Positions 30,663-50,447 of a stretch of 64,000 bases of DNA are shown here, piece after piece (within the stretch, counting starts at the first letter, position 1; every line of letters starts with the position of its first letter). The stretch spans positions 1,240,001-1,304,000 of the forward strand of contig NZ_CP054923.1 of assembly GCF_013364215.1 (NCBI RefSeq), given 5' to 3'. Under the pieces are notes generated by a model. It did no database searches. It saw only the letters and a program-made list of their open reading frames with translations, and was not told the DNA's origin. The position numbers and the translations under genes were made by a program. The stretch comes from Verrucosispora sp. NA02020 (GTDB lineage Bacteria > Actinomycetota > Actinomycetes > Mycobacteriales > Micromonosporaceae).

Positions 30663-30680
30663 TTCCGACCAGCCGGTATG
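30663..30680. promoter_or_regulatory. Shared operator motif, copy 1
   Basis: TTCCGACCAGCCGGTATG lies 17 bp upstream of the LLM start at 30646. It differs at a single position from copy 2 at 34509 and is closely related to the copies at 47676, 47771 and 50430. The core ACCG-N6-CGGT is palindromic, as for a TetR-type repressor site. No such regulator is encoded in this window. Confidence 0.7.
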
Positions 30681-30727
30681 TTACCGCTGTGGTCGTCGAC
30701 CTGCAAGGGTTTCGCAGGTCAGCGGGG

Positions 30728-31747
30728 TTACGACGAACGTCGAGAGGCGATGCGCAACTCGCCGGCACGGCGGCGGTGCCAGGAGCCGCGACCGAATCGG
30801 GCGTCGAGCACCAGGGCTCGGCGCAGGAACAGGTGCGGCACCGCCTCCATCGTGATGCCCATGCCGCCGTGCACCTGGATGCACCGCTCGGCGGCGAAGA
30901 CCGCCGCCGCCCCGGCCGCCGCCTTGGCCGCGTGCACCTGGATCTCCGCGTCCGGGCGTCCGTTGTCGACCGCCCAGGCGGCGTAGAGGGTCAGGTCCCA
31001 GGCGGCCTTGCGGGCCGTGGCGGCCTCGGCGAGCTGGAAGGCGACGCCCTGGAACGAGCCGATCACCCGACCGAACTGCTGACGGGTACGCGCCTGCTCG
31101 GCGGCCAGCTCGATCGCGCCCTGCGCGACACCGCAGAGTTCGGCGGCGACCACCAACGTGGCGCGGGCCGCCCCGGTGCCGGCCGGCACGATCTCCTGCG
31201 GATCGGGCAGCGTGACGTCCGACAGCGGCACCGACGGGTCGACCGACTCGCGCGCGGTCACCTCGACCGGCACGCTGGTCCACACGCCCTCGGCGGCGCC
31301 CAGGGCGACCACCGCGTCCGCCTGTGCCGCGTACGGCACCAGGGTGCGGACCGCCGAGCGGGGCGACACCTGGTCCGCCCGCGCGGTGGCCCCCGGCACG
31401 TCCACCGCCGGGGTCAGCACCCGGCTGCCGTCGAGCACCTCGTCCGGCAGCGGCGTACCGTGCCCGCTGCCGCAGAGCAGTTGCACCGCCGCCGCGTGCG
31501 CCGGGAACCGGCTCGCGACGAGCCGTTCGCCGAGCGCCTCGACGGCGACGAGCAGGTCGATCAGGCTCGACCCGATGCCGCCGACCTGCTCCGGCACACC
31601 GAGGAGCCCGAAGTCGCGCAACAGCGTCGCGTCACCGGCGGGGGCCTGCCAGTGCGTCGGCAGCCCGCCCGTGGCGCGTTCCGCGTCGGCCAGCGCGCCG
31701 ACGGTCTTGGCGATGTCCTGCTGTTCCTGGGTGAATGTTGCCCGCAC
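30728..31747 (-). CDS. Acyl-CoA dehydrogenase, second subunit of a pair
   Basis: 339 residues of the acyl-CoA dehydrogenase fold, short at the C-terminus (FTQEQQDIAKTVGALADAE, EARTRQQFGRVIGSFQ-like helix, CIQVHGGMGITMEAVPHLFLRRAL). It lacks a clear YEGT-type catalytic Glu. It follows another dehydrogenase gene by 13 bp, the arrangement of the mycobacterial FadE alpha2beta2 enzymes used on steroid side chains, in which two unlike half-active chains make one enzyme. GTG start at 31747. Confidence 0.9.
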   Translation of the reverse strand: MRATFTQEQQDIAKTVGALADAERATGGLPTHWQAPAGDATLLRDFGLLGVPEQVGGIGSSLIDLLVAVEALGERLVASRFPAHAAAVQLLCGSGHGTPLPDEVLDGSRVLTPAVDVPGATARADQVSPRSAVRTLVPYAAQADAVVALGAAEGVWTSVPVEVTARESVDPSVPLSDVTLPDPQEIVPAGTGAARATLVVAAELCGVAQGAIELAAEQARTRQQFGRVIGSFQGVAFQLAEAATARKAAWDLTLYAAWAVDNGRPDAEIQVHAAKAAAGAAAVFAAERCIQVHGGMGITMEAVPHLFLRRALVLDARFGRGSWHRRRAGELRIASRRSS

Positions 31748-31760
31748 GCGATGACTCCGC

Positions 31761-32912
31761 TCAGCGTGAGCGGGGCAGGTTCAGCACCCGCTCCGCCAGG
31801 ATCGATTTCTGGACCTCCTCCGTGCCGCCCTCGATGGTGTGGGCGCGGGCACGCAGGTAGCGGCGCATCCGGGCGGCGGCGCCGTCGCCGTCGAGCAACA
31901 CCCCGCCCCCGTCGTCGAGGTGCACGGCGAGCCGGTTGGCGCGCTGCACCACCCCGGCCCAGAGGCTCTTGAGGGCCGAGGTCTCCGGTCCGGGCACTCC
32001 CCCGGCGCGGCTCTCGCCGAGCATCCGCATCGACCCGATCCGCACCGCCTCGGCGTCGCACTGCAACGCGCCGACCGCGTCGACGAAGGCACTGTCGTCG
32101 GCCACCCCGCGCGCGATGCCGAGGTCGACGACCCGGTCCACCGCCTGGCGGGCCCACACCCAGAGGTTCAGCGCCATGCTGCCGCGCTCGAAGGCGAGCG
32201 TGGTCAGGGCCACCCGCCAGCCGTTGCCGACCCCGCCGAGCACGTCGGCGTCGGGGACGAAGACGTCGTCGAGGAACATCTCGTTGAACTCGGTGTCCCC
32301 GTTGATCATCGTCAGCGGCCGGACGGTGAACCCGTCCATCGGGGCGAGGAAGTAGGTGATCCCCTGGTGCTTGGGCGCGTCGGCGTCGGTGCGGGCGAGC
32401 AGCAGGCACCGGGAGGCGTTGTGCGCGTTCGACGTCCAGATCTTGGCGCCGTTGATCAGCCAGCCGCCGTCCACCTTCGTGGCGGCGGTCCGCAGACCGG
32501 CCAGGTCGGATCCGGCGCCGGGCTCGCTGAAGCCCTGACACCAGTACTCCTCGCCGCGCAGGATGCCGGGCAGGTGCCGGGCCTGCTGCTCGTCGGTGCC
32601 GTGCGCGATGACGGTCGGTCCGGCGAGCATCATGCCGACCCCGTTGAGCGGGTACGGCGCCCCGCGTACCGCGGCCTCCTCGTTGAAGATGGCCTGTGCC
32701 AGCGAGTCCAGACCCCGGCCACCGTGCGCGACCGGCCACGACAGCCCGGCCCAGTTGCCGGCGCAGAGCCGGTCCTGCCAGACCCGCGACCAGTTCTCGC
32801 GCTCGTCCTGCGACAACTCCTCCTGGTCGGGGACGTCGCTCAGCGCCTCGTCCAACCAGGCGCCGACCTCACGCCGGAACGCCAGGTCGGACGCGCTGTC
32901 ATCGAAGTCCAT
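31761..32912 (-). CDS. Acyl-CoA dehydrogenase, first subunit of a pair
   Basis: 383 residues with WCQGFSEPGAGSDLAGLRTAA (FAD/substrate loop), GAKIWTSNAH, and C-terminal RARAHTIEGGTEEVQKSILAERVL. At the position of the MCAD catalytic Glu (YEGT) this reads Gly (IEGGT), as in the heteromeric FadE26-type enzymes, where the base is elsewhere. Likely forms a heterotetramer with the product of the next gene and introduces a 2,3-double bond. Follows acyl-CoA ligase 2 by 30 bp. Confidence 0.92.
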   Translation of the reverse strand: MDFDDSASDLAFRREVGAWLDEALSDVPDQEELSQDERENWSRVWQDRLCAGNWAGLSWPVAHGGRGLDSLAQAIFNEEAAVRGAPYPLNGVGMMLAGPTVIAHGTDEQQARHLPGILRGEEYWCQGFSEPGAGSDLAGLRTAATKVDGGWLINGAKIWTSNAHNASRCLLLARTDADAPKHQGITYFLAPMDGFTVRPLTMINGDTEFNEMFLDDVFVPDADVLGGVGNGWRVALTTLAFERGSMALNLWVWARQAVDRVVDLGIARGVADDSAFVDAVGALQCDAEAVRIGSMRMLGESRAGGVPGPETSALKSLWAGVVQRANRLAVHLDDGGGVLLDGDGAAARMRRYLRARAHTIEGGTEEVQKSILAERVLNLPRSR

Positions 32913-32942
32913 CCGCCCCTCCCCTCGTGTCGTACCGTCCGG

Positions 32943-34490
32943 TCACGCCGTCACCTCGCGGGTACGCCGCAGCCGGGCCTTGTAGAGCTTGCCGTTCGGA
33001 TCGCGCGGCAGCGCGTCGCGCACCAGGTAGGACACCGGGCGCTTCGGCTTGGCCAGCCGGTCGGCGAGGTAGCGGCGCAGCCCGTCGACGGCGGCGTCGC
33101 CCTCGGGCGCGTCGTCGCGCAGGACGACGTGCGCCTGCGGCACCTCGCCGAACTCCGGGTCGGGTACGCCGATCACCCCGGCGTCGGCGACCCACTCGTG
33201 GGCCAGCAGCGCCGCCTCGATCTCGGCCGGGTAGACGTTCACGCCGCCGACCAGGATCAGCTCCGACGCCCGGCCGGTGATGTAGAGGAACCCGTCGGCG
33301 TCGACGTGGCCGACGTCCCAGACGGTCATCAGGCCGTCGCGGCGGGAGCCCTCGGTCTTGCCGGGATCGTTGTGGTACTCGACCCGGTCGTTGCCCTGCC
33401 GCATGTACACGATGCCGGTCTGCCCCACCGGCACCTCCTCGCCCTGCTCGTCGAGGATCCGCAGGGTGGAGATGGACGCCGGGCGGCCGACCGTGCCGGG
33501 GTGCGCGAGCCACTCGTGCGGGCGGGCGATCGTGGTGCCGACCTCGGTGGAGCCGTAGTACTCGTAGACCACCGGGCCGAACCAGTCCAGGATCCGCTGC
33601 TTCACCTCCAGCGGGCAGGGTGCCGCGCCGTGCAGCACGTAGCGCAGCGAGGAGACGTCGTAGTCGGCGCGTACCGACTCGGGCAGTTGCAGCAGCCGGT
33701 AGAAGTGCGTCGGCACCATGCTGGTGCCGGTGACCCGCTGCTCCTGGACGCGCCGCAGGAAGCCCTCCGGCGTCCAGCCGTCCATCAGCACCATCGTGCC
33801 GCCGGCGTGCAGCGCGCCCATCGCCGGGGTGATGTTGGCGGAGTGGTACATCGGCGCGGAGACCAGCCAGGACGCGAAGGCCGGGCGTTCCATGCCGAAC
33901 TCGGCGAACAGCCACCGGTAGGTCAGCGCCCCGGCGTCGGCGTCGATGCCGCTCAGCGGGCGCTTGACGCCCTTGGGGCGGCCGGTGGTGCCCGAGGTGT
34001 ACATCATCAGCGAACCCGCCGGGACCTGTTCCGGACTCACCGCCGGCATGTCGGCGGTGAGCGCCGACAGCGGCTGCGCCCGGTCGGTCTGCGGGGTGCC
34101 GTCGACGAAGACCTGGATGCCGGGTGCGGCCTCGGCGGCGGAGACGACGACCTGCTCGACGCGCGCCGAACCGACCACCACCTTGGCGCCGCTGTCGGCC
34201 AGGACGTACGCGATCTCCGGCTCGGTGAGGTGGTAGTTGAGCGTGACCAGGTACAGGCCGGACTGCATCGCCGCGAGGTACAACGCGATCATGCCGGCGC
34301 TGTTGGTCATGACCGCGGCCACCGTGTCGCCGACCTGGAGCCCGGCCCGGGTACGCAGACCGTGCGATATCCGGTTCACCTCGGCGAACAGTTCCCCGTA
34401 GGAGATCCGGCGGTCGTCGGGGGTGACCACCGCGCACAGGTCGGGTGCTGCGGTCGCCCACAGCCGAAAGCCGGTCCGCTCCTCGCTCAT
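32943..34490 (-). CDS. AMP-forming acyl-CoA ligase 2
   Basis: 515 residues, ANL superfamily. P-loop MMYTSGTTGRPKGVKRPLSG, A5 motif EYYGSTEVGT, hinge VGHVDADGFLYITGRASELILVGG, C-terminal Lys in PNGKLYKARL. First gene of the unit with the dehydrogenase pair, so it probably primes their substrate. ATG 34490 has AAGGAG 7 bp upstream; an upstream in-frame start at 34568 would read through the operator and is not used. Confidence 0.93.
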   Translation of the reverse strand: MSEERTGFRLWATAAPDLCAVVTPDDRRISYGELFAEVNRISHGLRTRAGLQVGDTVAAVMTNSAGMIALYLAAMQSGLYLVTLNYHLTEPEIAYVLADSGAKVVVGSARVEQVVVSAAEAAPGIQVFVDGTPQTDRAQPLSALTADMPAVSPEQVPAGSLMMYTSGTTGRPKGVKRPLSGIDADAGALTYRWLFAEFGMERPAFASWLVSAPMYHSANITPAMGALHAGGTMVLMDGWTPEGFLRRVQEQRVTGTSMVPTHFYRLLQLPESVRADYDVSSLRYVLHGAAPCPLEVKQRILDWFGPVVYEYYGSTEVGTTIARPHEWLAHPGTVGRPASISTLRILDEQGEEVPVGQTGIVYMRQGNDRVEYHNDPGKTEGSRRDGLMTVWDVGHVDADGFLYITGRASELILVGGVNVYPAEIEAALLAHEWVADAGVIGVPDPEFGEVPQAHVVLRDDAPEGDAAVDGLRRYLADRLAKPKRPVSYLVRDALPRDPNGKLYKARLRRTREVTA

Positions 34491-34508
34491 CGGACTCCTT
34501 GAGTTAGA

Positions 34509-34526
34509 TTCCGACCATCCGGTATG
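34509..34526. promoter_or_regulatory. Shared operator motif, copy 2
   Basis: TTCCGACCATCCGGTATG lies in the 70-bp gap between divergent starts at 34490 and 34561, so it can control both the ligase/dehydrogenase unit and the MBL gene. It has one mismatch to copy 1. Confidence 0.7.
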
Positions 34527-34560: not shown

Positions 34561-35544
34561 ATGTCCATACCCGCGATCGACGCCCACGCCGCCAGCTACC
34601 GCGCCCGTGAGGTGCCCGCACCCGCCCAGGTCGTGGACGGTGTCTGGGCCGTGCCCGTCCCCCTGCCCGGCAGCGCCCTGCGCTACGTCACCGTCTATCT
34701 CCTGGACACCGCCGACGGGCTCGTCCTCGTCGACGCCGGCTACGACCACCCGGCCTGCTGGCGCGCGTTCACGCAGTCCGTGGAGTCCCTCGGGCACCGG
34801 GTCGAGGCGATCGGCACCGTCCTGCTCACCCACAACCACCCCGACCACGTCGGCTTCGCCGCCCGGCTCCAGACGACCACCGGAGCCCGCATCGTGATCG
34901 GCCGCCCCGACGACTTCGCCACCATGCACCAAACCCGGGGCACGTTCCTCGCCCAACTGCGCGCCGCCCTCGACCTCACCGGAGCCCCCGCCGACGTGGT
35001 CGAGTCGATGTACGCCGACGCCGTCGACGTCGCCGTGCACCACGAGAGCCTGCGGCCGGACGTGACCGTCACCGACGAGACCGAGTTCCGCTTCGGCGAC
35101 GTGACCGTCCGCGCCGTCCCCACCCCGGGGCACACGTACGGCCACACCGTCTATCTCGACACCCGGGGTCTGGTCTTCACCGGCGACACCATGATGGCCG
35201 AGGGCCCCACCCAGCTCGCCATCGTCAGCCGCCCCGAGGACGACCCGGCCGCCGACCTGTTCCGCAGCCTGGCCCGCATCCGCGCCCTCGACGCCGCGGT
35301 GGCCTGCCCGGCCCACCAGTTCCCGTACCGGGACGTCGCCGCCCGGGTCGACGAGCTGACCGCGTACCACCGCGACGAGGTCGACGCGGTGCGGGACCTG
35401 ACCGTGGTCGACGACGACGCGTGGACGCTGGCCCGGCGGATGACCTGGCAGAAGCCGTGGGACGAGCTGGGTCGGGGCACCCGCCGCTTCCACCTCGTGC
35501 ACGCCCTCGCCCTGCTGCGGACGGCGACCGGCACCGACCGGTGA
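34561..35544 (+). CDS. Metallo-beta-lactamase-fold hydrolase
   Basis: 327 residues: zinc motif THNHPDH (Thr90-His96), PTPGHTYGHTVY, LVFTGDTMMAEGPT and CPAHQF. The pattern is that of MBL hydrolases acting on thioesters, lactones or glutathione adducts. In this context a CoA-thioester or lactone hydrolase is plausible. Divergent from ligase 2 and under operator copy 2. It converges on ligase 3 with a 3-bp gap. Confidence 0.88.
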   Translation: MSIPAIDAHAASYRAREVPAPAQVVDGVWAVPVPLPGSALRYVTVYLLDTADGLVLVDAGYDHPACWRAFTQSVESLGHRVEAIGTVLLTHNHPDHVGFAARLQTTTGARIVIGRPDDFATMHQTRGTFLAQLRAALDLTGAPADVVESMYADAVDVAVHHESLRPDVTVTDETEFRFGDVTVRAVPTPGHTYGHTVYLDTRGLVFTGDTMMAEGPTQLAIVSRPEDDPAADLFRSLARIRALDAAVACPAHQFPYRDVAARVDELTAYHRDEVDAVRDLTVVDDDAWTLARRMTWQKPWDELGRGTRRFHLVHALALLRTATGTDR

Positions 35545-35547
35545 CGC

Positions 35548-37104
35548 TCAGCCGGGCTGCTGGTCGCCGTACGTCCAGTCCGGCCGTAGTGTCGGCCGCA
35601 GGTCCCGCAGGCTGCGCTTGAGCACCTTGCCGGACGGGTTGGTGGGCAGCTCGGCCACCAGGTAGACCTCCTTGGGCACCTTGAAACCGCCGAGCCGCTC
35701 CCGGGCGTACGCGATCAGCTCCTCGGCGGCCAGCCCCGGGCGGCCCACCACGAACGCCACCGGCACCTCCACCCACACCGGGTGCGGCGCCGCCACCACC
35801 GAGACGGCCAGGACCAGCGGATGGCCGGCCAGGACGTTCTCGATCTCGGCGCTGGACATGTTCTCCCCGCCGCTGCGGATCATGTCCTTGAGGCGGTCCC
35901 GGATGTAGAGGTAGCCGTCGGCGTCGAAACAGCCCACGTCACCGGTGTGGAACCAGCCGTCGCGGAAGGCGGCACGGGTCGCCTCCGGGTCGTCGAGATA
36001 GCCGGGGCTCACCTTCGGCCCGCGCGCGATCACCTCGCCGTTCTCCCCCACCGGCACGTCGTCGCCGTTCGCGTCGACCACCCGCACCTGGACCCACGGC
36101 GCGGGGATGCCGACCGAGCCCTGCTTGCTCTGCGCGTGGGCGGCGTCCAGATAGGTCAACCCGCTGCACGTCTCGGTGAGACCGTAGCCCTCGATCAGCC
36201 GCGCGTTCGGGAACAGTGTGCGCGCCACCGCGTACAGGGCCGCGCTCACCTGGGAGTAGATCACCCAGCGCACCGAGGAGGGGTCGGCGTCCACCGTGTT
36301 CTCGCTCTCGCGCCGGAGCATGTCGAGCATCGTCGCGGCCATCACCATCCCGGTGATCCGCTCGGTGCCGATCGCCTCCAGCACGGCCGCCGGGGCGAAG
36401 CGTCGCTGGAGCACCATGCAGCCGCCGACGTGCCAGATGCCGTACCCGGGCAGGTCGGTGCCGCCGACGTGGTAGAGCGGCGCGAAGTTGAGGATCCGGT
36501 CGCCCGCCCGCAGCCCGAGTTCGACGATCTGGGCGTGCATGTTCATGTTCACGTTGCCGTGGGTGAGCAGCACGCCCTTGGGCAGGCTGGTGGTGCCGGA
36601 GGTGTAGACGATCCGTTGCAGCGCGTCCGGATCGAGGTCGGCGTCGGGCACCCGGGCGCCACGGTGGGCCTCGATCAGCGCCCGCAGGTCGGTCCAGCCG
36701 TCGCCGATCGGTTCCAGCGCGTACCGGCGTACCTGCGGCAGGCGGGCGGTGGCCAGGTCGGTCAGGTCGGCGAACTCGGGGACGGTCGCGACCGCGCACA
36801 CGTCGGCGTGTGCGAGCAGCCGCGCGATCTCGCCGGACGTCAGCCGGTAGTTCAGCGGCACGAAGACCGCGCCGAGCTTCGCCGCCGCCAGCGACAGGAT
36901 GAGGAACTCGGGCACGTTGTTCGCCACGATCGCGATCCGGTCGTCCCGGCCCAGCCCCTCGGCGGCGAGACCGGCCGCGAGCGCGTTGACGTCCTGGTCG
37001 AGCTGTCGGTGGGTCCACCGCCGGCCCTCGAACACCAGCGCGTCGTCGTCGCCGAAGCGCCGCGCGTTGCGGGCCAGCATGGCGGCCAGGTTGGCGGTGC
37101 TCAC
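35548..37104 (-). CDS. AMP-forming acyl-CoA ligase 3
   Basis: 518 residues, ANL superfamily: P-loop IVYTSGTTSLPKGVLLTHGN (Ser-Leu where Gly-Arg is commoner), A5 GYGLTETCSG, hinge TGDVGCFDADGYLYIRDRLKDMIRSGG and C-terminal Lys in PSGKVLKRSL. It shares the rare segment YLDAAHxQSK with the next upstream ligase, so the two are tandem paralogues. GTG 37104 overlaps that gene's stop by 4 bp. Last gene of the long unit that begins at 47607. Confidence 0.93.
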   Translation of the reverse strand: MSTANLAAMLARNARRFGDDDALVFEGRRWTHRQLDQDVNALAAGLAAEGLGRDDRIAIVANNVPEFLILSLAAAKLGAVFVPLNYRLTSGEIARLLAHADVCAVATVPEFADLTDLATARLPQVRRYALEPIGDGWTDLRALIEAHRGARVPDADLDPDALQRIVYTSGTTSLPKGVLLTHGNVNMNMHAQIVELGLRAGDRILNFAPLYHVGGTDLPGYGIWHVGGCMVLQRRFAPAAVLEAIGTERITGMVMAATMLDMLRRESENTVDADPSSVRWVIYSQVSAALYAVARTLFPNARLIEGYGLTETCSGLTYLDAAHAQSKQGSVGIPAPWVQVRVVDANGDDVPVGENGEVIARGPKVSPGYLDDPEATRAAFRDGWFHTGDVGCFDADGYLYIRDRLKDMIRSGGENMSSAEIENVLAGHPLVLAVSVVAAPHPVWVEVPVAFVVGRPGLAAEELIAYARERLGGFKVPKEVYLVAELPTNPSGKVLKRSLRDLRPTLRPDWTYGDQQPG

Positions 37105-38624
37105 CGGGCCGCCTCGATCTCGCGCAGCCCCTTCTTGAGCACCTTGCCGGAGTCGTTGCGCGGCAGCGTGGTGACCACCTCCACGTACTTCGGGACCTTG
37201 TACCGGGCCAGTTCGGCCCGGCAGTGCTCGCGCAGGTCCTCGCCGGTGACGGTGGCGCCGTCGCGCAGGATGACGAACGCCTTCGGCACCTCGTCCCAGG
37301 TCGGGTCCGGTACGCCGATGACGGCGACCTCGGCGACGTCCGGATGCTGCGCGAGAACCCTTTCGATCTCGGCGCTGGCGATGTTCTCCCCACCCGACTT
37401 GATCAGGTCGGCGCGCCGGTCGACGAACCACAGGTAGCCGTCGGCGTCGATCCGGCCCACGTCGCCGGTGAGGAACCAGCCGTCGCGGCGGGTCCGCCGG
37501 TTGGCCTCGTCGTCGTTCCAGTAGCCGGGCGACACCTTCTCGCCACGGACCACGATCTCCCCCTCCACCCCCGGTGGCACCGGCTGGAACCGCTCGTCGA
37601 CGATCTCGATCCGGACGCCCGGGAACGGTGCGCCGAGCGCGCCGAGCTTGCTCTGCTCGTGGGCGGCGTCGAGGTAGCAGGCGCCGTTGCACAGCTCGGT
37701 CATGCCGAACGTGTCGACCAGCCGGACGTGCGGCAGCCGCCGTTTCACCTCCTGCCGCACGCGCGGCGCGACCCCGGCGAACAGCAGGTAGCGCAGCGAC
37801 CGCAGGTCCGGCGGCTCGGCGAGGTCGAGCAGTCCGAAGAGGATCTGGGCGGCGAGGACCATGCCGGTGACGTGTTCCTCGGCGGCGACGCGGGCGATGT
37901 CGGCCGCCTTGAACGTCGGCGTCAACACCATCGTCGCGCCCGCGACGAAGGTGGCCAGGCCGGGTGCCTCCAGACCGCTGACGTGGAACAGCGGCGCGGA
38001 GACCAGGATCCGGTCCTGCGGGGTGAGTTCCAGTTCGAGCAGTTGGGCGAGGTGGTTGGCGGTCAGGTTGCCGTAGGTGTGGATCACACCCTTGGGGCGG
38101 GCCGTGGTGCCCGAGGTGTAGAGCAGGCGGTGCACGTCGCCGGGCTCCTTGGCCGCGTCCGGGACCCGGACGCCCGCCGGTTGGCCGGCCAGCAGGGCTG
38201 CCAGCCGCCGGGCGTCGCCGACCACCCGGTCGCCGTTGGCGACGGCGGTCCGCAGGCCGGTACCGGCCAGCAGCCGGCCCGCGTCGCCGGCGAAGTCGTC
38301 GTCGTAGAGCAGCGCGGTGATGCCGGCCTGGTCGATGACGTACGCCTGCTCGTTCGGGTGCAGCCGCCAGTTCAACGGCACCGAGATCGCGCCGATCCGG
38401 CTCAGGGCGAGCAGTTCGAGGACGTACGTGGCGGTGTTGCGCCCCAGTACGCCGACCAGTTCACCAGGGCCCAGCCCGGCCGCGAGCAGCGCCGCCGCGT
38501 GCCGGTCGACGTCGGCGTCCAGCTCGGCGTACGTCCACCGGGCCGCGCCGTCGACCAGGGCCTCCCGGTCGGCGCGGCGCAGGGCCTGCCGGCGCAGCGT
38601 CAGCGAGAAGTTGCTGCCCGCCAT
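37101..38624 (-). CDS. AMP-forming acyl-CoA ligase 4
   Basis: 507 residues, ANL superfamily: LLYTSGTTARPKGVIHTYGN, FGMTELCNG, TGDVGRIDADGYLWFVDRRADLIKSGG, Lys in DSGKVLKKGL. Paralogue of ligase 3 encoded directly downstream; the pair may handle an acid and its shortened product. The ATG shares one base with the VOC stop (TGATG), which fixes the start at 38624 rather than further upstream. Confidence 0.93.
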   Translation of the reverse strand: MAGSNFSLTLRRQALRRADREALVDGAARWTYAELDADVDRHAAALLAAGLGPGELVGVLGRNTATYVLELLALSRIGAISVPLNWRLHPNEQAYVIDQAGITALLYDDDFAGDAGRLLAGTGLRTAVANGDRVVGDARRLAALLAGQPAGVRVPDAAKEPGDVHRLLYTSGTTARPKGVIHTYGNLTANHLAQLLELELTPQDRILVSAPLFHVSGLEAPGLATFVAGATMVLTPTFKAADIARVAAEEHVTGMVLAAQILFGLLDLAEPPDLRSLRYLLFAGVAPRVRQEVKRRLPHVRLVDTFGMTELCNGACYLDAAHEQSKLGALGAPFPGVRIEIVDERFQPVPPGVEGEIVVRGEKVSPGYWNDDEANRRTRRDGWFLTGDVGRIDADGYLWFVDRRADLIKSGGENIASAEIERVLAQHPDVAEVAVIGVPDPTWDEVPKAFVILRDGATVTGEDLREHCRAELARYKVPKYVEVVTTLPRNDSGKVLKKGLREIEAAR

Positions 38625-39118
38625 CAGCCGTCCGCCTCCCGCCGCCGGGCGAGGATCTCCTCCCGCGACGGCAGCGACACGAACTCCAACAGGTTGCCGT
38701 CGAGGTCGCGGGCCGCGAACGCGGTGATGTACCCGTAGTTCTCCAGCAGCACCCGGTTCGGCGGGGTGAGGCACTCGGCGCCGAGCGACACCAGTCGGGC
38801 GTGCAGCTCGTCCATCTCGTCCACCGGCACCGCGAAGCTGAGCAGGAAGGGGCCCAGTTCCAGGTGCCCACCGGTGGCGGTCCGGGTCGGGGTGCCGTTC
38901 CACTCGATGAGTTCGAGCTGGCCGATCTGGCTAGGCCCCTGGAGGTACTGCACCCGGCCGGTGGTGCCGGCGGGCAGCCCCAGCGACACCTCGATGCCCG
39001 GCCCGCCGACGTCGGTACGCAGCGTGCGGCGGTAGCCCAGCGCCTGCTCGTAGAAGTCGGCGGCCCGGTCGACGTCGGAGACGGTCACCGCCACGTGGTG
39101 CACTTCGCTGACCGGCAT
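38624..39118 (-). CDS. VOC-superfamily protein
   Basis: 164 residues. Two beta-alpha-beta-beta-beta modules are visible (VHHVAVTVSDVDRAADFYEQALGYRR and PFLLSFAVPVDEMDELHARLVSLGAE, ending DLDGNLLEFVSLPS). His at 7-8 and the C-terminal Glu are in place for a metal site, as in glyoxalase I, methylmalonyl-CoA epimerase and ring-cleaving dioxygenases. It sits between the SDR and ligase genes. Confidence 0.88.
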   Translation of the reverse strand: MPVSEVHHVAVTVSDVDRAADFYEQALGYRRTLRTDVGGPGIEVSLGLPAGTTGRVQYLQGPSQIGQLELIEWNGTPTRTATGGHLELGPFLLSFAVPVDEMDELHARLVSLGAECLTPPNRVLLENYGYITAFAARDLDGNLLEFVSLPSREEILARRREADG

Positions 39119-39119
39119 G

Positions 39120-42617: not shown

Positions 42618-42634
42618 GGGTGCCGGGTTCTCCT

Positions 42635-43426
42635 TCAGCTCCACGAGGGAATGGCGGCGAGCAGTCGCCGCGTGTAGTCCTGCTCCGGCCGGTCCAGTAC
42701 GCGTTCGGCGTCCCCCTCCTCGACGACGCGTCCCCCGCTCATCACCGCGATGCGGTCGCACAGGTCGCTGGCGAGCATCAGGTCGTGGGTGACGAAGAGC
42801 AGGCCGATGCCGAGTTCGTCGACCAGGGTGCGGAACAGCTCGACGACCTTGGTCTGGGTGGTCACGTCGAGGGCGGTGGTGCACTCGTCGGCGATCACCA
42901 GCGAGGGGCGGGTGACGACGGCGAGGCCGATGGCGACCCGCTGCTTCAACCCGCCGGAGAGCTGGTGGGGGTAGCTGTCCAGCACCCGGGTCGGGTCGGT
43001 GATGCGCATCTGCTCCAGCACCTGCACCGAGCGACGTTCGATCTCGGCCCGGGTGATGCCGGGAACGTGTCGTCGCAGCACCTCGGCGAGGTGGACACGG
43101 ACCTTCATCAGCGGGTTCAGCGAGCGCGACGCGTCCTGGAACACCATGCCCACGGCGCTGCCACGGACCCGTCCGGTGCGGTCCACCCCGGGGGCCACCA
43201 CCACGTCACCGGCGAGCGTGACCGAACCCTGCTCCACCCGGACGTTGCGTTCCAGCAGCCCGACGACGCAGCGGGCCAGGGTGGTCTTGCCGCTGCCGGA
43301 CTCGCCGACCACCCCGACGATCTGGCCGCCCCGCACCTCGAGGTCGACGGTGTCGAGCAGCCGCAGGTCGTCGGTGGCGAGCCGGGCGGTGACGGAGAGA
43401 CCGCTGATGGTCAGCAGGTCGGTCAT
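42635..43426 (-). CDS. Oligopeptide-type ABC transporter ATPase
   Basis: 263 residues, DppD/OppD type: Walker A GESGSGKTT, Q-loop FQDASRSLNPLMKV, signature LSGGLKQRVAIGLAV (Leu-Lys for the usual Gln/Met-Arg), Walker B LVIADECTTALDVT with Cys after Glu, switch VTHD. The start overlaps the permease stop by 4 bp. Part of a five-gene importer inside the catabolic operon. Confidence 0.92.
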   Translation of the reverse strand: MTDLLTISGLSVTARLATDDLRLLDTVDLEVRGGQIVGVVGESGSGKTTLARCVVGLLERNVRVEQGSVTLAGDVVVAPGVDRTGRVRGSAVGMVFQDASRSLNPLMKVRVHLAEVLRRHVPGITRAEIERRSVQVLEQMRITDPTRVLDSYPHQLSGGLKQRVAIGLAVVTRPSLVIADECTTALDVTTQTKVVELFRTLVDELGIGLLFVTHDLMLASDLCDRIAVMSGGRVVEEGDAERVLDRPEQDYTRRLLAAIPSWS

Positions 43427-44319
43427 CGGCGCCTCTTCCGTGGGTCGTGGTGGGTGAGCAGCGCGTCGCCGAGCAGGTTGACCAGCAGCACCAGCAGGGT
43501 GATGGCGAGGCCGGGGAAGAACGCGAGCCACCAGGCCTGGCTCAACTCGTCCTGACCGGAGGCGAGCATCGAGCCCCAGCTCGCCCGCGCGGGTCCGACC
43601 CCCAGGCCGAGGAAGCTCAACGCGCTCTCGATCAGGATCGCGGTGCCGACCTGGAGCGTGCCGAGCGCGACGATGGTCCCGGCGAGGTTGGGCAGGACGT
43701 GCCGGAAGACGATCCGGGCCTCGGAGGCGCCGGCGGCGCGCAGCCCGATCACGAACTGGCGTTCGCGTACGGCCAGGGTGGCCGCGCGGGTGACCCGGGC
43801 GCAGACCGCCCAGCCGGTGAGCGCCAGCACCAGGAACAGCACCGGCAGCGAGCTGCCCCGGTTCGAGATGATCGCGAGGGCGACCAGGATGAACGGCAGG
43901 GCGAGCTGGGCGTCGATGAGGATCGAGATGACCCGGTCGACCCAGCCCCGGAAATAGCCGGCCAGCACGCCCAGCAGCGTGCCGGGGCCGATGGCGACCA
44001 GCGCGCCGACCAGGCCGATCATGATGGTGAGCTGGCCGGCGGAGACGAACTGGGTCAGCAGGTCCTGGCCGAGCTTGTCGGTGCCGAGCGGGTGTGCCCA
44101 GCTCCCGCCGTCGAGGAAGCCGGGCGGCTGGCGGGTCGCGTCCAGGTTCTGCCCGCGCTCGGGCAGCAGCCCGGTGAACGGCAGGACGAACACCAGGACG
44201 GCGACCACGGCCAGCGGCAGGGACAGCCAGAACACCGAGGTACGCGCGCGTCGGGCGGTGCGTGCCGGCGGCACCGGCGCGGTGACCGGGTCAAGTTCGA
44301 GTTGGCTCACGGCACTCAC
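43423..44319 (-). CDS. Oligopeptide-type ABC permease (DppC-like)
   Basis: 298 residues, with HPLGTDKLGQDLLTQFVSAGQ and the EAA loop FVIGLRAAGASEARIVFRHVLPN, then SFLGLGVGPARASWGSMLA. This is the standard DppC layout with six membrane spans. GTG 44319 overlaps the DppB-like stop by 4 bp. Confidence 0.93.
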   Translation of the reverse strand: MSAVSQLELDPVTAPVPPARTARRARTSVFWLSLPLAVVAVLVFVLPFTGLLPERGQNLDATRQPPGFLDGGSWAHPLGTDKLGQDLLTQFVSAGQLTIMIGLVGALVAIGPGTLLGVLAGYFRGWVDRVISILIDAQLALPFILVALAIISNRGSSLPVLFLVLALTGWAVCARVTRAATLAVRERQFVIGLRAAGASEARIVFRHVLPNLAGTIVALGTLQVGTAILIESALSFLGLGVGPARASWGSMLASGQDELSQAWWLAFFPGLAITLLVLLVNLLGDALLTHHDPRKRRR

Positions 44320-45239
44320 CTCACCCTCGGGTCGACGATCGAGTGGATGACGTCCACGAGCAGGTTGAGCAGGACGAAGACCAGGGCGCCGAACACCACG
44401 ATCGCCTGCACCAGCGGGAAGTCACGGAACTGGATGGCCTGCAACGCGAGCTGCCCGAGGCCGGGCCAGGAGTAGACGTACTCGACGGCGACGGCACCGG
44501 AGAGCAGGATGCCGGTCTGTAGGACGACGATGGTCAGGATCGGCATCATGGCGTTCTTGAACGCGTGCCGCCACACCACCCGGCGACCGGCGATGCCCCG
44601 GGCCCGCGCCGCGTCGACGTACGGCTCGGCCAGTGCCTCGCTCATCGAGGCCCGGGTCAGCCGGGCGATGTGCGCCATCGGATAGACCGACATGGTGAGG
44701 GCGGGCAGGATCAGGTGCCGGAGACTGCCGGACTGCCCGGCGGGTAGCCAGCCGAGGTTCACCGCGAAGAGCACCACCAGCATCATCCCGAACCAGAAGA
44801 CCGGCACGGACTGGCCGAGCAGGGCCAGCGTGGAGGCGGCCCGGTCCCACCAGGTGCCTTCCCGGGTGGCCGCGAGCACGCCCAGCGGGACGCCGACGAG
44901 CAGGGCGAGGAGCATGCCGGCAGCGACCAGTTGCAGGGTGTACGGCAGCCGATCGGCGATCATGCTGGTGTTCGCCTGGTAGAACTGCAGCGACTGCCCG
45001 AGGTCGCCGGTGAGGACGCCCTTGAGGTAGTTCAGGTACTGCACCACGAGCGGCTGGTCGAGCCCGAGTTCGGTGCGCAGCGCCTCGCGTTGTTCGGGCG
45101 GCGCCATGGGCCCCAGGATCATCGTGGTCGGGTCGCCGGAGAGTCGGCCGAGGGCGAACGCCAGGCTGAGCGCGATGAGCAGCGACGCGAACAGCGACGC
45201 GAGGCGAACGCCGATCCGGCGTACGGTGCTGGCCTTCAT
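44316..45239 (-). CDS. Oligopeptide-type ABC permease (DppB-like)
   Basis: 307 residues, with an N-terminal span, LRTELGLDQPLVVQYLNYLKGVLTGDLGQSL, the EAA loop YVDAARARGIAGRRVVWRHAFKN and YSWPGLGQLALQAI. ATG 45239 is preferred to an upstream in-frame start because it overlaps the ATPase stop by exactly 4 bp, as do its neighbours. Confidence 0.93.
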   Translation of the reverse strand: MKASTVRRIGVRLASLFASLLIALSLAFALGRLSGDPTTMILGPMAPPEQREALRTELGLDQPLVVQYLNYLKGVLTGDLGQSLQFYQANTSMIADRLPYTLQLVAAGMLLALLVGVPLGVLAATREGTWWDRAASTLALLGQSVPVFWFGMMLVVLFAVNLGWLPAGQSGSLRHLILPALTMSVYPMAHIARLTRASMSEALAEPYVDAARARGIAGRRVVWRHAFKNAMMPILTIVVLQTGILLSGAVAVEYVYSWPGLGQLALQAIQFRDFPLVQAIVVFGALVFVLLNLLVDVIHSIVDPRVR

Positions 45240-46078
45240 CGGCGGTTCCTCCATCGCGCGCCGGGCATCGCGGCCAGCAGTTCGCGCGTGTAGTCGTGGC
45301 GCGGCGTCACGAAGACCGTCTCGCAGGGGCCCGCCTCGACCACCTGTCCGCGGTACATGACGTGCACGGTGTCGCAGACGGCGCGGACCACGGCCAGGTC
45401 GTGGCTGATCATCAACAGCGCGGCACCGGTGGTCGTCCGGATCTCCCGGAGCAGGTCCAGCACGTCGGCCTGGACGGAGACGTCGAGACCGGAGGTCGGC
45501 TCGTCGGCGACGATGAGTCGGGGACGCATGAGCAGCGCGCGGGCGACGCAGACCCGCTGCGCCTGGCCGCCGGAGAGCTGGTGCGGGAACCGGTCGAGGA
45601 TCTCCGGCGCGAGCCGGACCCGACCGAGCAGGTCGGCGTCGGTGATCCAGGAGGTGCGCCGGGGTTGCAGGGTACGCAGTTCCCGCAGCCCGGAGCGGAC
45701 GGACTGGCGGGGGTCGAGGGAGCCGTGCGGGTCCTGGAAGACCACCTGCACCTCGGGGCGCAGTCGGCGCAGTTGCCCGCGCCCGATCGAGGAGAGGGAG
45801 TGGCCGAGCAGCCGGATGTCGCCCGTGCCGCGTGGCCCGAGCCCGGTCGCGGCCATCGCCAGCGTCGTCTTGCCGGAGCCGGACTCGCCGACGACGGCGA
45901 CGCTCTCTCCGGCCGCGATGCGCAGCGACACCTGGTCCACCGCACGGAACACCTCCCCCGTGCTGCGGTTGCGGTGCTCGACGACGAGGTCGTCGACCGC
46001 CAGTACGGGCACGTCCGCCTCCGGGGTGCGGGGATGCCGGGTGTCGCCCGGCATCCCCGTCTCCACTGCCTCGGACAT
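45236..46078 (-). CDS. Oligopeptide-type ABC transporter ATPase
   Basis: 280 residues, DppF/OppF type: Walker A GESGSGKTT, Q-loop FQDPHGSLDPRQS, signature LSGGQAQRVCVARAL, Walker B LIVADEPTSGLDVS, switch ISHDLAVV. The C-terminal tail is short. It follows the binding-protein gene by 2 bp. With the other ATPase it makes the heterodimeric motor of this importer. Confidence 0.93.
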   Translation of the reverse strand: MSEAVETGMPGDTRHPRTPEADVPVLAVDDLVVEHRNRSTGEVFRAVDQVSLRIAAGESVAVVGESGSGKTTLAMAATGLGPRGTGDIRLLGHSLSSIGRGQLRRLRPEVQVVFQDPHGSLDPRQSVRSGLRELRTLQPRRTSWITDADLLGRVRLAPEILDRFPHQLSGGQAQRVCVARALLMRPRLIVADEPTSGLDVSVQADVLDLLREIRTTTGAALLMISHDLAVVRAVCDTVHVMYRGQVVEAGPCETVFVTPRHDYTRELLAAMPGARWRNRR

Positions 46079-46080
46079 CG

Positions 46081-47607
46081 TCAGCGGGTCGTCTTCGTGA
46101 AGTCCACGGTGTTCAGGGGACCGAACTCGACGCCGGTGACACCGGGTGCGGTCGCGTAGTTGAACACCTGCCGGTACAGCGGCACGTAGCAGTGCTTCTC
46201 CACCACGCCCATCGTGTTGAGCTGCTCGTAGATCGGAGCGGCCTGATCGGCGTCGTCCTGCTCCAGCGCCTCCTGGGCCATCTCGTCGAAGCGCGGGTCG
46301 GGGCAGTTGCCGGTGATGGACTGGGTCTTCATGAAGCCACTGGCGAAGAAGTCCGGCACGGCGACGTTCGGCACCCCGGCGAAGATCGCGATGCCGGGCA
46401 CCTGGCGGCCGATGACGCGCTTGACGAGCGTGCCGTAGTCGAGCGGCTCGTAGTTGACCTTGAAACCGGCCTGCTCCAGGCTGCCGCCCACGGCCTGCGC
46501 GACCTCCTCGATGTTGGTGTACTGCGCGGCCGGATAGGTGATCTGGACCGTCGGGCCACCGGAACCGACCAGTTGCTTGGCCCGGTCCAGGTTCGGGGTC
46601 ACGCTCTGCGCCGGCTGCTCACCGGGCCGGACGTTGAGCAGTCCGGCGTCGGCGACCGCCTGGCCGTCGAAGATGCCGCGCACGATCGCGTCGCGGTCGA
46701 TGGACAGGGCCGCCGCCTCGCGCAGTTCGGGCTTGTCGAACGGGGCCTTGGTCGAGTCCAGGAAGGCGATGATCTTCATGGCGGTCTCGGTGCTGACCAC
46801 CTCGACGTTGGCCGCCTTGGCCGCGGAGGCCTGGGCCGGCGGGAGGTCGAAGGCGACGTCGACGCTCTTGCTCTGGATCAGGGCGAGCCGCTGGGCGGCC
46901 TCGTTGGCCCAGGTGAAGGTGATGCCCTGGTTGCTGGGCGCCGTTCCCCAGTACTCGGGGTTGGGCTTCACCGACATGTCGCGCCCGGCGTTGCCGCCCG
47001 CCCACACGTACGGGCCGGTGCCGACGGGGGCGGCGGCGAAGCCGTCCGAGCCCTTCTCCTCGTAGTACTTCGGGGGCACGAGGTAGACCGTGGTGAGCAG
47101 GTCCGGAATGTTGTACTGCGGGGCCTTGGTCTTGAGCACGACCGTGCCGGCGTCCGGGGCCTCGATCGAGGTGACGTTGCCGAAGTATGACTTCAGCTGC
47201 GACGCCTCGCTGTCCCGGGTGAGGGTGATGGTGTTCGCGACCGCCGCCGCGTCGGCCTTCTCGCCGTTGCTGAAGCTGACGTCGGGCCGGACGGTGAAGG
47301 TCCAGGTGGTCGCGTCGGTGCGGGTCCAGCTGGTGAGCAGGCTGGTGTCGGCCGGGCCGAGGTTGTCGTCGGTGCCGATCAGCGTTTCGAGCATGGTGGC
47401 CCAGACGATCTGGCCGGACCGTGCGCCGACGATGGGGTCGAGGGTCGCGGGCTGGGCCGCGAGCAGCGCCCGGATGGGCGTGGAGTCCGACGCGCCGGAA
47501 TCCGACGAGTCGGAGTCGCCGCAGGCGGTGAGGCCGATGCCGGCGAGCGTCAGTGCCGTAGCGAGCGCCAGTGTGCGCCGTGAGTGCGAGGATTTCATGA
47601 TCATCAT
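46081..47607 (-). CDS. ABC substrate-binding lipoprotein of the catabolic operon, SBP_bac_5 family
   Basis: 508 residues, with signal peptide and lipobox GLTAC (Cys29), then a Ser/Asp-rich spacer and a SBP_bac_5 domain (LAAQPATLDPIVGARSGQIVWATMLETLIG, VGTGPYVWAGGNAGRDMSVKPNPEYWG). As first gene of the operon ending in ligase 3, it suggests that the importer brings in the compound degraded. SBP_bac_5 proteins bind peptides but also sugars, opines and other solutes. ATG 47607 has AAGGAC upstream; 47604 and 47598 are alternative starts. Confidence 0.9.
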   Translation of the reverse strand: MMIMKSSHSRRTLALATALTLAGIGLTACGDSDSSDSGASDSTPIRALLAAQPATLDPIVGARSGQIVWATMLETLIGTDDNLGPADTSLLTSWTRTDATTWTFTVRPDVSFSNGEKADAAAVANTITLTRDSEASQLKSYFGNVTSIEAPDAGTVVLKTKAPQYNIPDLLTTVYLVPPKYYEEKGSDGFAAAPVGTGPYVWAGGNAGRDMSVKPNPEYWGTAPSNQGITFTWANEAAQRLALIQSKSVDVAFDLPPAQASAAKAANVEVVSTETAMKIIAFLDSTKAPFDKPELREAAALSIDRDAIVRGIFDGQAVADAGLLNVRPGEQPAQSVTPNLDRAKQLVGSGGPTVQITYPAAQYTNIEEVAQAVGGSLEQAGFKVNYEPLDYGTLVKRVIGRQVPGIAIFAGVPNVAVPDFFASGFMKTQSITGNCPDPRFDEMAQEALEQDDADQAAPIYEQLNTMGVVEKHCYVPLYRQVFNYATAPGVTGVEFGPLNTVDFTKTTR

Positions 47608-47675
47608 GGCTGTCCTTCACAGGGGATGGACCCGTCGTACCCCCGCGTGACGCGGCGGTGACGTTCGCCACAAAG

Positions 47676-47693
47676 TACCGACCAGCCGGTATC
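47676..47693. promoter_or_regulatory. Shared operator motif, copy 3
   Basis: TACCGACCAGCCGGTATC lies 68 bp upstream of the importer/catabolic operon start at 47607. A second right half-site, AGCCGGTATC, lies at 47708-47717. The core is shared with copies 1 and 2. Confidence 0.7.
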
Positions 47694-47770
47694 AAGTCAA
47701 CGGGTCGAGCCGGTATCTCGTCCATGACAATCAGATCACATGAGCAGGTCAGGCCCGGACATTGCCTTCA

Positions 47771-47788
47771 TACCGACCGGTACGTATT
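47771..47788. promoter_or_regulatory. Shared operator motif, copy 5
   Basis: TACCGACCGGTACGTATT ends at the base immediately before the ATG chosen for the crotonase at 47789. The left half matches copy 4 exactly (TACCGACCGG). Bound here, a repressor would block transcription directly. Confidence 0.6.
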
Positions 47789-48535
47789 ATGCCGAGGGTG
47801 ACTCCCACACTCACCCACGAACGCGACGGCCACGTCGCCCGGGTGCGATTCGACAACAGCGCCCGTGGCAACTGTCTCGACGACACGACGCTTCGCGAAC
47901 TCGTGGACACCCTGGAGACCGCGGCGGCCGACGAGGCGTGCGCCGTCATCCACCTCGACATGGCCGGCCGGCACTTCTGCGGCGGCTGGGACACCTCGGC
48001 GTTCGGCCGACTGCGCGGTGCGACCGCCGCGACGGTCGCCGCCGGACTACGGGACAGCGACGCCGCCCTGCACCGCGTCCGGCACCTCCCGGTACCCGTG
48101 GTCGCCGCCGTCCGGGGTCAGGTCGTCGGCTTCGGCGCCGGCCTGCTCGGCGCGATCCACCTGCCGGTCGCCGGCGAGGGCGTCCGGCTCTCCCTCCCGG
48201 AGGCCCGGTTCGGCTTCGCCCCCGCCGGGGTCGGCCACACCATCGCCCGGTCCGTGCCCCGCCCACACGCCTACCACCTGCTGACCGGTGCCGCGACGGC
48301 GACCGCCCGGGACCTGCTCGCCTGGGGCTTGGTCGCCCAGGTGGTACCCGACGACGACGTCGACCGCGCGGTGGACGCCCTCGTCGACACGCTGCTCGCC
48401 GTGCCGTCCCGGACGCTGCGCGCGGTGGTCCAGGTCGTCGAGTCGAGCCTGGAGTCCGGCACCGCCGACCGGGCCTACGAGATCTCCGCCGGCACCATCG
48501 TGGCGGGGCTGAGCACCCGGGAGGTCTCCGGATGA
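47789..48535 (+). CDS. Crotonase-family enoyl-CoA hydratase/isomerase
   Basis: 248 residues: ARVRFDNSARGNCLDD, oxyanion segment MAGRHFCGGWDTSAF, VRGQVVGFGAGLLGAIHL and LPEARFGFAP. The second catalytic Glu (LPEARFG) is kept, but the first Glu position appears to be Gly (GFGAGLL), a pattern more like isomerases and other crotonases than hydratases. No ribosome-binding site precedes ATG 47789, so the mRNA may be leaderless; GTG 47798 is an alternative. First of three genes with 4-bp overlaps, divergent from the importer. Confidence 0.82.
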   Translation: MPRVTPTLTHERDGHVARVRFDNSARGNCLDDTTLRELVDTLETAAADEACAVIHLDMAGRHFCGGWDTSAFGRLRGATAATVAAGLRDSDAALHRVRHLPVPVVAAVRGQVVGFGAGLLGAIHLPVAGEGVRLSLPEARFGFAPAGVGHTIARSVPRPHAYHLLTGAATATARDLLAWGLVAQVVPDDDVDRAVDALVDTLLAVPSRTLRAVVQVVESSLESGTADRAYEISAGTIVAGLSTREVSG

Positions 48536-49350
48536 GTCAACCGTTCCGGCCCGGTGAGGCCGTCTGGGTGGAGTTGTGCACCCCACGGCCGGAGCAGGCC
48601 GAGGAGTTCTATCGCACGCTGTTCGGCTGGACCGTACGCACCGAGCGGCTCGGCACCACCACGTACCGGATGTGCAGCCTGGACGGCCGCGACGTGGCCG
48701 GCATCTCCGACGCCACCGCGCTGCACGGCGGCCGGCCCCGGGGCTGGATCGCCTACTTCGCGGTCCACGACATCCACCGCTCCGCCGCGCAGGCGGTCGC
48801 ACTCGGCGGCGAGTTGGTGACCCCGCCGCGTTACCTGCCCGCCGCCGGGACCGGTGCCGCCGTCATCGACCCGTTCGGCGCCGCGTTCGGCCTCTATCAG
48901 GGCGAGTCACGAGCCGGTGTCCAGATGCTCAACTCGGTCGGCGCGCTCTGCTGGAACGAGCTGGACACCGGGGAGCCGGACCGCGCGGTGGCCTACTACC
49001 GGTCGCTGTTCGGATACACCACCCGGCAACACGGGGACTCCCCCACCGCCCGTCCCTACAGCCTGCTGATGCTCGGCGACGTCCCGGTCGCCGGCGTGCT
49101 GGCCCTGGACAACGACTGGCCGAACCTGATCCCGTCGAAATGGATCACCTACTTCGCGGTCGCCTCGCTGGACGACGCGCTGCGCCGGGTCGTCGCGCTG
49201 GGCGGGACGCCCACCGTCGGTCCGGTCGACAGCCCGCACGGGCGGCTTCACCTGGTGAAGGATCCCGGCGGGCACACCCTCTGCCTGATCCAGCTGGAAG
49301 ACGGACTACGCCCGCACCATCCCTCCTCCGACCCGGCGGTGACCCGATGA
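48532..49350 (+). CDS. Two-domain VOC-superfamily protein
   Basis: 272 residues with two full VOC modules (about 8-125: VWVELCTPRPEQAEEFYRTLFGWTV; about 138-255: CWNELDTGEPDRAVAYYRSLFGYTT). Two-module proteins of this kind include actinobacterial glyoxalase-like and hydroxylase proteins; the reaction is unknown. ATG overlaps the crotonase stop by 4 bp, and its own stop overlaps the flavin reductase start. Confidence 0.88.
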   Translation: MSQPFRPGEAVWVELCTPRPEQAEEFYRTLFGWTVRTERLGTTTYRMCSLDGRDVAGISDATALHGGRPRGWIAYFAVHDIHRSAAQAVALGGELVTPPRYLPAAGTGAAVIDPFGAAFGLYQGESRAGVQMLNSVGALCWNELDTGEPDRAVAYYRSLFGYTTRQHGDSPTARPYSLLMLGDVPVAGVLALDNDWPNLIPSKWITYFAVASLDDALRRVVALGGTPTVGPVDSPHGRLHLVKDPGGHTLCLIQLEDGLRPHHPSSDPAVTR

Positions 49351-49862
49351 CGGCCGAGCCCCTGTTCGACTCCGCCGAGTTCCGTCAGGTGTGCGGACAC
49401 TTCCCCACCGGTGTCACGGCGGTGACCGCGGTGACCGGTGACGGCACCGTCGCCGCGCTGACGGTGAACTCCTTCACCTCGGTGTCGCTGCGCCCCCCGA
49501 AGGTGCTGTTCTGCGTCACCAGCTCCTCGTCGAGCTTCCCGGTGCTGATGGACTCGGCCCGGATCGCCGTGCACATCCTCAGCCAGGACCAGGAGGACGT
49601 GGCGCGCCGGTTCGCCACCTCCGGGCTGTCCGGGGCGGACAAGCTCGACGGCGTCTCCTGGGTGCCCGGGCCGGACGGCGTCCCGCTGCTGCCCGGCACG
49701 CCCGCGGTCCTGGCCGGGCGCCGCGACACGGCGATCACCAGCGGCGACCACGTGATCATCCTGATCGACGTGGACCACGTGCACCTGAAGCCGACGAGCG
49801 TCCCGGCCCTGTCGTTCTATCGGGGGCGGTTCGTCGCGCCGTCGAGCACGCCGGGAGAGTGA
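49347..49862 (+). CDS. Flavin reductase, likely reductase for the island's LLM monooxygenases
   Basis: 171 residues, FMN-binding split barrel (FRQVCGHFPTGVTAVTAVTGDG, LTVNSFTSVSLRPPKVLFCV, IAVHILSQDQEDVARRFA). It has the size and motifs of HpaC-like reductases of two-component monooxygenases. No oxygenase is adjacent, so it may serve the LLM genes of the unit at 23.7-30.6 kb, which share its operator. ATG overlaps the VOC stop by 4 bp. Confidence 0.9.
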   Translation: MTAEPLFDSAEFRQVCGHFPTGVTAVTAVTGDGTVAALTVNSFTSVSLRPPKVLFCVTSSSSSFPVLMDSARIAVHILSQDQEDVARRFATSGLSGADKLDGVSWVPGPDGVPLLPGTPAVLAGRRDTAITSGDHVIILIDVDHVHLKPTSVPALSFYRGRFVAPSSTPGE

Positions 49863-49914
49863 CCCGCCGAGACGGCGGGGAGGTGACCGCCGGTATGCCC
49901 GGCGGCCACCGCCG

Positions 49915-50391
49915 TCACGGCAGGTAGCGGAAGAGGATCTCCGCCACGCAGCAGGTGGTGGAGTCCTCGGCGAACTCCACCACCACCGACGCCTTGGCCT
50001 GCACGCCGCCCGGCACCCCGGCGATCGGCTCGGCGGCGAGCAGCGTCGCGGTGCCCTGGATCGGCACGCCCGGCGGCAGCGGCTTGACGAACCGGACCCG
50101 GTCCAGCCCGTAGTTGACGCCCATCGAGAACGTCGTGACCTCCAGGATGTCCGCGAGCAGACGCGGCACCAGAGCCAGGGTGAGGAACCCGTGCACGATC
50201 GTCGTGCCGAACGGGCCGGATCGGGCCCGTTCCACGTCGACGTGGATCCACTGGTGGTCCTTGGTCACGTCGGCGAAGCGGTCGACCTCGTCCTGGGTGA
50301 CCACCTGCGGCTCACTGGCACCCAGCTCCCGGCCGACGAGGTCGAGCAGGTCGGCCGGGGTGGGCGCGATGGTGCGGGAGGCGGTACGCAT
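49915..50391 (-). CDS. MaoC-like (R)-specific enoyl-CoA hydratase
   Basis: 158 residues, hot-dog fold with the hydratase-2 motif FADVTKDHQWIHVDVERARSGPFGTTIVHGFLTL. The catalytic Asp45 and His50 are at the right spacing. It would hydrate a trans-2-enoyl-CoA to the (3R)-hydroxy product, matching the (3R)-type SDR at 39120. Divergent from the acyl-CoA dehydrogenase gene across operator copy 4. Confidence 0.92.
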   Translation of the reverse strand: MRTASRTIAPTPADLLDLVGRELGASEPQVVTQDEVDRFADVTKDHQWIHVDVERARSGPFGTTIVHGFLTLALVPRLLADILEVTTFSMGVNYGLDRVRFVKPLPPGVPIQGTATLLAAEPIAGVPGGVQAKASVVVEFAEDSTTCCVAEILFRYLP

Positions 50392-50429
50392 CGGGCGACT
50401 CCATTCGTGGGATCAGGGAGGATGAAGCA

Positions 50430-50447
50430 TACCGACCGGATGGTATG
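50430..50447. promoter_or_regulatory. Shared operator motif, copy 4
   Basis: TACCGACCGGATGGTATG sits between divergent starts at 50391 and 50481. It lies within a wider palindrome, GCATACC (50427-50433) and GGTATGC (50442-50448), with an 8-nt spacer. It can control both the MaoC and the acyl-CoA dehydrogenase genes. Confidence 0.7.

Follow-up and report, generated by a model that had tools for sequence, protein, structure and literature searches.

A 20-bp palindrome and a distant TetR-family gene as the predicted operator and repressor of a 27-gene catabolic island in Verrucosispora sp. NA02020

The effector of the TetR-family repressor KstR2 is a steroid-derived coenzyme A (CoA) thioester, and the PDB title of the AibR structure 5k7h names isovaleryl-CoA as the effector of that protein. 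PfmR (TTHB023) of Thermus thermophilus HB8 has the published operator TACCGACCGNTNGGTN (PMC7022988). MbdR of Azoarcus sp. CIB (PDB 4uds) is reported to repress from operators lying over -10, -35 and +1 (PMC4424350), and BkaR of mycobacteria is described as an autoregulated TetR protein that goes with an acyl-CoA operon and has several palindromic operators (PMC3920632). The present analysis concerns a 64-kb stretch, hereafter the window, of Verrucosispora sp. NA02020 (C1:1240001-1304000 of its genome, G000), in which five palindromic sites (S1-S5, Table 1) precede the genes of a catabolic island. These sites are very probably the operators of one autoregulated TetR-family repressor, encoded by tetR at C1:3321276-3321908, which would control 27 genes and be released by a CoA thioester of the pathway. 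A TetR dimer would occupy the 20-bp palindrome where it overlies the promoters of the seven transcription units (g24-g50), holding them silent until an intermediate of the pathway releases it; the most likely such compound would be a CoA thioester formed by one of the island's own ligases. tetR would be autoregulated through its own upstream operator. What was computed comprises the five sites and how well they are kept, the association of tetR with the island by co-occurrence and linkage, the operator of tetR itself and the overlap between operators and predicted promoters. The fold of the tetR product ranks closest to that of PfmR (PDB 3vpr).

The predicted operator sites and regulator gene

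The initial annotation of the window had described an 18-bp motif at five positions in four intergenic regions, three of them between divergent genes. All five sequences were located there, g33/g34, g45/g46 and g49/g50 being divergent and g30/g31 in tandem. The motif stands, its unit being a 20-bp palindrome that begins two bases earlier, with CATACCGACC and GGTCGGTATG as the halves of the matrix consensus; the consensus first proposed fails at the site at 47771, which deviates on the right arm. The matrix was built from 84 genus sites, comprising those above 18.5 bits in relatives and six of G000, with the G000 tetR site counted twice. When the window was scanned with the final matrix, the five sites alone reached 17 bits, scoring 24-29 bits.

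The exact pattern TWCCGACCNNNNNGTAT gave five matches in the window, as compared to a mean of 0.01 over 100 dinucleotide shuffles, and six in the whole genome (7,278,285 bases), five of them inside the window, as compared to none for the reversed control. In a survey of 160 Micromonospora genomes, the pattern occurs 4-7 times per island-bearing genome and 0-3 times in the other 147, the reversed control matching nine times in all 160. A random frequency of the motif, genome-wide included, had been named beforehand as the observation that would speak against it; the shuffle, reversed-control and genus-wide counts reject a chance origin of the sites. The sixth genome match, C1:6343445, was rejected as a further operator at 7.3 bits (by eye it sits where an open frame begins), and C1:732397 was rejected on its score of 10.0 bits, its gene context being judged by eye.

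The regulator had been expected outside the window, and none of the genome's 64 TetR_N matches falls there (150 of 256 first-look candidates scored). A TetR gene preceded by the motif, the check that had been suggested, was found when a looser genome search returned TTCCGACCGGGCGGTAGG at C1:3321217, upstream of a gene for a 211-residue TetR protein 2.03 Mb from the island. The operator of this gene, CCTTCCGACCGGGCGGTAGG, lies 40 bp upstream of its start. The product matches PF00440 (the N-terminal TetR_N helix-turn-helix) with 68.1 bits, above the cut-off, and shows the all-helical fold of nine helices expected of the family. The palindromic operator before the own gene, another family mark, is present as sequence in G000, with a like site upstream of the ortholog in 12 of 12 relatives. 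In the relative G006 the tetR ortholog adjoins the g50 ortholog and has a similar site upstream; the regulator is therefore taken to belong to the island and to have been displaced here.

The distribution of the two genes also links them. With 10 (g40) and 19 (tetR) first-look candidates scored per genome, g40 matches were obtained in 14 of the 160 genomes, 13 of them orthologs and the fourteenth (G084) 37% identical, and tetR matches in 13, the same 13 as the g40 orthologs. The possession of an operator by tetR and its occurrence in the same genomes as the island marker g40 support, at the level of sequence, the earlier suggestion of a TetR-family repressor. All five operators are kept in 12 of 12 relatives with the island, the S5 of G061 and G089 and the S1/S2 of G083, where the island is split, being taken from the genus-wide pattern search, and the S5 of G061 also from alignments. 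tetR adjoins g50 in all relatives except G181, where it is 11 kb away (for G061 and G089, the contig that carries tetR includes no more than part of g50). An extra operator stands 56-57 bp from S5 in 10 of the 11 relatives read (all but G089) and is absent from G121.

Some gene order around S5 varies. About 11 kb of extra DNA lies between tetR and g50 in G181, making this a second relative whose regulator has moved away from the island. The space between g49 and g50 holds, in G006, two genes read by eye as crotonase-like and quinone-oxidoreductase-like; at least 1.8 kb separates these two genes in seven of ten relatives, with no such insertion in this strain, G012, G121 and G181.

Promoter layout and alternative readings

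Conservation of the sites was measured in alignments bounded by neighbouring gene ends (15-22 rows, a few repeating one place), a column being conserved if at least 90% identical. Operator columns are conserved at 16-20 of 20 positions, as compared to 34-45% of other columns: 19/20 vs 55/123 for S1 (15 rows), 16/20 vs 43/112 for S2 (22 rows, 3 repeating the same place), and 20/20 for S3 and 19/20 for S4 vs 69/203 in the rest of their common region (17 rows, 1 repeated); S5 was aligned with 11 other genomes. These alignments replace an earlier footprint (S1-S4 site columns 80-100% vs flanks 3-33%), in which rows were picked by operator score and window likeness, favouring the sites, and no other row was kept for S5; the contrast is now smaller but clear.

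The best sigma-70-like promoters of g34, g45, g46, g50 and tetR have a -10 that falls at operator position 15-16 and a -35 that coincides with the operator start or slightly precedes it; among the eight promoters, five have a best predicted -10 overlapping the right arm of the operator. S3 lies between a predicted -35 TTGACT and -10 TACTTT, and S4 between TTGCCT and TATTAT, with a spacer of 17 in both cases, while the predicted -10 of g30 overlaps the operator's left end. The predicted -10 of g46 is so close to the gene start that its message is likely leaderless. As supporting evidence only, this predicted layout fits repression by blocking RNA polymerase.

Some TetR proteins act as activators, and activation from these sites would have that precedent; it is nevertheless improbable, since most of the promoters have a predicted -10 box that shares bases with the site. 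MbdR, whose operator shares the ATAC-N10-GTAT frame, is moreover described as repressing over -10, -35 and +1 (PMC4424350).

A still smaller chance is given to binding by another TetR protein of the genome. The 64 TetR matches, drawn from the 150 scored among 256 first-look candidates, were surrounded by 66 own-genome loci outside the window (202,942 bases), and in these no further place exceeds 17 bits except two at 17.5 bits; both are copies of CCTACGCACCAGTAGGTATG, one before each of two TetR genes, at C1:185537 and C1:334871. The inner half-site of this pair differs (TACGCACC), and island-bearing relatives carry a different tetR at the island, with a distribution equal to that of the island; the pair was rejected on distribution and half-site. 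The same helix-turn-helix score and the same operator-like upstream site of its two genes suggest a duplicated segment.

That the motif is a promoter element with the GGTATG arm as -10 box is barely credible, for although the right arm doubles as -10 in five of the eight predicted promoters, both arms and the centre are conserved in matrix and alignments, the same motif stands between divergent genes, and island and tetR co-occur exactly.

Several observations weigh against control of S1-S5 by the tetR product. Of the six operators, that of tetR has the lowest score (19.1 bits vs 24-29), and the score of the best tetR promoter is low too (5.7). The best promoters at g33 and g49 lie in other registers, the GGTATG arm itself supplies part of the -10 match, and the promoter scores come without a shuffled control. 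The pattern matches 1-3 times in 36 of the 147 island-free genomes (44 matches in total, vs 9 control matches in 160 genomes). TetR proteins 30-35% identical to the tetR product stand near the same palindrome in eight of nine stretches fetched from other Micromonospora, where their genes lie beside other acyl-CoA operons, and a 36% identical TetR does so in Thermomonospora. In the fold comparison an uncharacterised TetR (3him) has the same Z as PfmR, which comes sixth by sequence profile. Binding and repression by the tetR product are inferred from sequence, and the effector is probably a CoA thioester by analogy with relatives and from the four CoA ligases of the island. With the same palindrome near those other TetR genes, the operator is a mark of a class of regulators; what ties it to this tetR is linkage and co-occurrence rather than the motif by itself.

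In G117 and G173 a near-perfect palindrome occurs at three places each around a TetR gene whose product is about 31% identical to that of tetR, with acyl-CoA and importer genes (by eye); these are likely another TetR regulon.

The island, its spread and the displaced tetR gene

Genes were predicted with a simple codon-composition gene caller and Pfam, and operon limits from the distances between genes and their orientation. By this count 27 predicted genes (g24-g50), not the 24 first counted, make up the seven units downstream of the sites; they become one predicted regulon with an identified, testable repressor.

Table 1. Positions of the operator sites, transcription units and displaced regulator gene (window coordinates unless C1 is given)
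Feature	Position	Strand	Description
S1 (TATTCCGACCAGCCGGTATG)	30661..30680		upstream of LLM run g30-g24, tandem region g30/g31
S2 (GATTCCGACCATCCGGTATG)	34507..34526		between divergent g33 (CoA ligase) and g34 (metallo-beta-lactamase, MBL)
S3 (AGTACCGACCAGCCGGTATC)	47674..47693		upstream of importer operon g45-g35
S4 (CATACCGACCGGTACGTATT)	47769..47788		upstream of g46-g48
S5 (CATACCGACCGGATGGTATG)	50428..50447		between divergent g49 (MaoC) and g50 (acyl-CoA dehydrogenase)
g30-g24	23699..30646	-	four luciferase-like oxidoreductases, CoA ligase, crotonase, VOC protein
g33-g31	30728..34490	-	CoA ligase, two acyl-CoA dehydrogenase proteins
g34	34561..35544	+	metallo-beta-lactamase-fold hydrolase
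g45-g35, importer part	35548..47607	-	g45-g41, ABC importer with family 5 solute-binding protein
g45-g35, enzymes	35548..47607	-	g40 HMG-CoA-synthase-like/ChsH2 fusion, thiolase g39, SDR g38, VOC g37, CoA ligases g36 and g35
g46-g48	47789..49862	+	crotonase, VOC protein, flavin reductase
g49	49915..50391	-	MaoC-like dehydratase
g50	50481..51821	+	acyl-CoA dehydrogenase; convergent neighbour is tetR in 11 of 12 relatives
Displaced tetR and acyl-CoA dehydrogenase end fragment	G000 C1:3321215-3322594

Pfam, NCBIfam and PDB sequence searches of the island proteins, made for the pathway substrate, returned broad families alone. The chances are about even that the island codes for a CoA-dependent catabolic pathway not yet described, with luciferase-like oxidoreductases, a dedicated ABC importer and the HMG-CoA-synthase-like/ChsH2 fusion with thiolase, which moved between actinobacterial lineages as a block with its own repressor and near-unchanged operators, the repressor having recently escaped here to act from 2 Mb. 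As the effector should be a pathway intermediate, a binding screen with the repressor could reveal the substrate.

When named genomes were scanned with the g40 alignment, the best 80 of 526 places were retained, and 14 of these were mapped: four in Micromonospora, eight islands in other genera, and two (Frankia and Streptomyces himalayensis) without the island in the stretch examined. S2, S3 and S4 stand in the same intergenic regions in seven of the eight other-genus islands (Virgisporangium ochraceum, Dactylosporangium sucinum, three Nocardioides, Thermomonospora echinospora and Actinomadura sp.), and the eighth, from a Patulibacter metagenome-assembled genome, is rearranged. Absence of the sites from orthologous clusters, which had been put forward as adverse to the motif, is thus seen neither in the genus relatives nor in these seven. 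Six of the eight clusters contain, within the island, a tetR of 49-62% identity, and none was found in the stretch examined for the Virgisporangium and Dactylosporangium islands. Thermomonospora, N. daejeonensis and Dactylosporangium also have an S1 site upstream of g30. In nine whole genomes, 48 matches to a second pattern were obtained (one palindrome entering twice, once per strand), of which 42 fall on the contig of the island; the control had one match. Among 397 genomes drawn from the order, tetR had 18 matches, 11 at 33-40% and seven at at least 85% identity; two of these seven come from another genus of the family, with operator, g50 and g49 alongside. In all, the island was read in 20 genomes, 13 of Micromonospora and seven of other genera.

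Among the 13 genus genomes with the island, only in this strain has tetR left the island neighbourhood, and it carries a piece of the adjoining dehydrogenase gene. Behind tetR lies an end piece of about 630 bp of a g50-type dehydrogenase gene, 99.7-99.8% identical to the window copies. At g50 the same segment occurs twice in an exact 626-bp tandem (51000-51625 and 51626-52251); the first copy completes the dehydrogenase, and the frame then enters the second out of frame and stops at 51821. All three copies start within a few bases of one point. The simple reading is that a recent rearrangement moved tetR; an assembly fault would be the other source of the tandem repeat and the displaced gene. 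A natural relocation of a repressor gene in one strain would be a small test case of regulon evolution.

Beside the island, window positions 1546-15727 hold a ketosynthase-like pair (by eye), two BTAD (SARP-type) regulators, a luciferase-like oxidoreductase and a flavin reductase, and resemble a natural-product cluster.

Comparison with described regulators

No description of this regulon was found among the matches listed in the open-access literature. BkaR resembles the proposed repressor in autoregulation, an acyl-CoA operon and multiple palindromic operators, and was rejected as the regulator type on its operator core GTTA(N)T(N4)A(N)TAAC, which is unlike the island consensus. KstR2 (PDB 4w97, 4w1u) and AibR are near the tetR product by sequence and fold, but are 26-28% identical to it and serve different pathways, and the KstR2 operator differs from that of the island. 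The PfmR operator is near-identical to the island's, S5 fitting 12 of its 13 specified letters and the corresponding consensus here being CATACCGACCGGTCGGTATG. PfmR nevertheless shares 28% identity over 184 residues, goes with a different enzyme set and has a shorter operator than the island's, so orthology is not supported; judged by sequence, the tetR product is PfmR-like, not PfmR. The predicted regulator is thus of a known type, a PfmR/KstR2-like TetR repressor of a conserved regulon, and the pathway it would control may be new.

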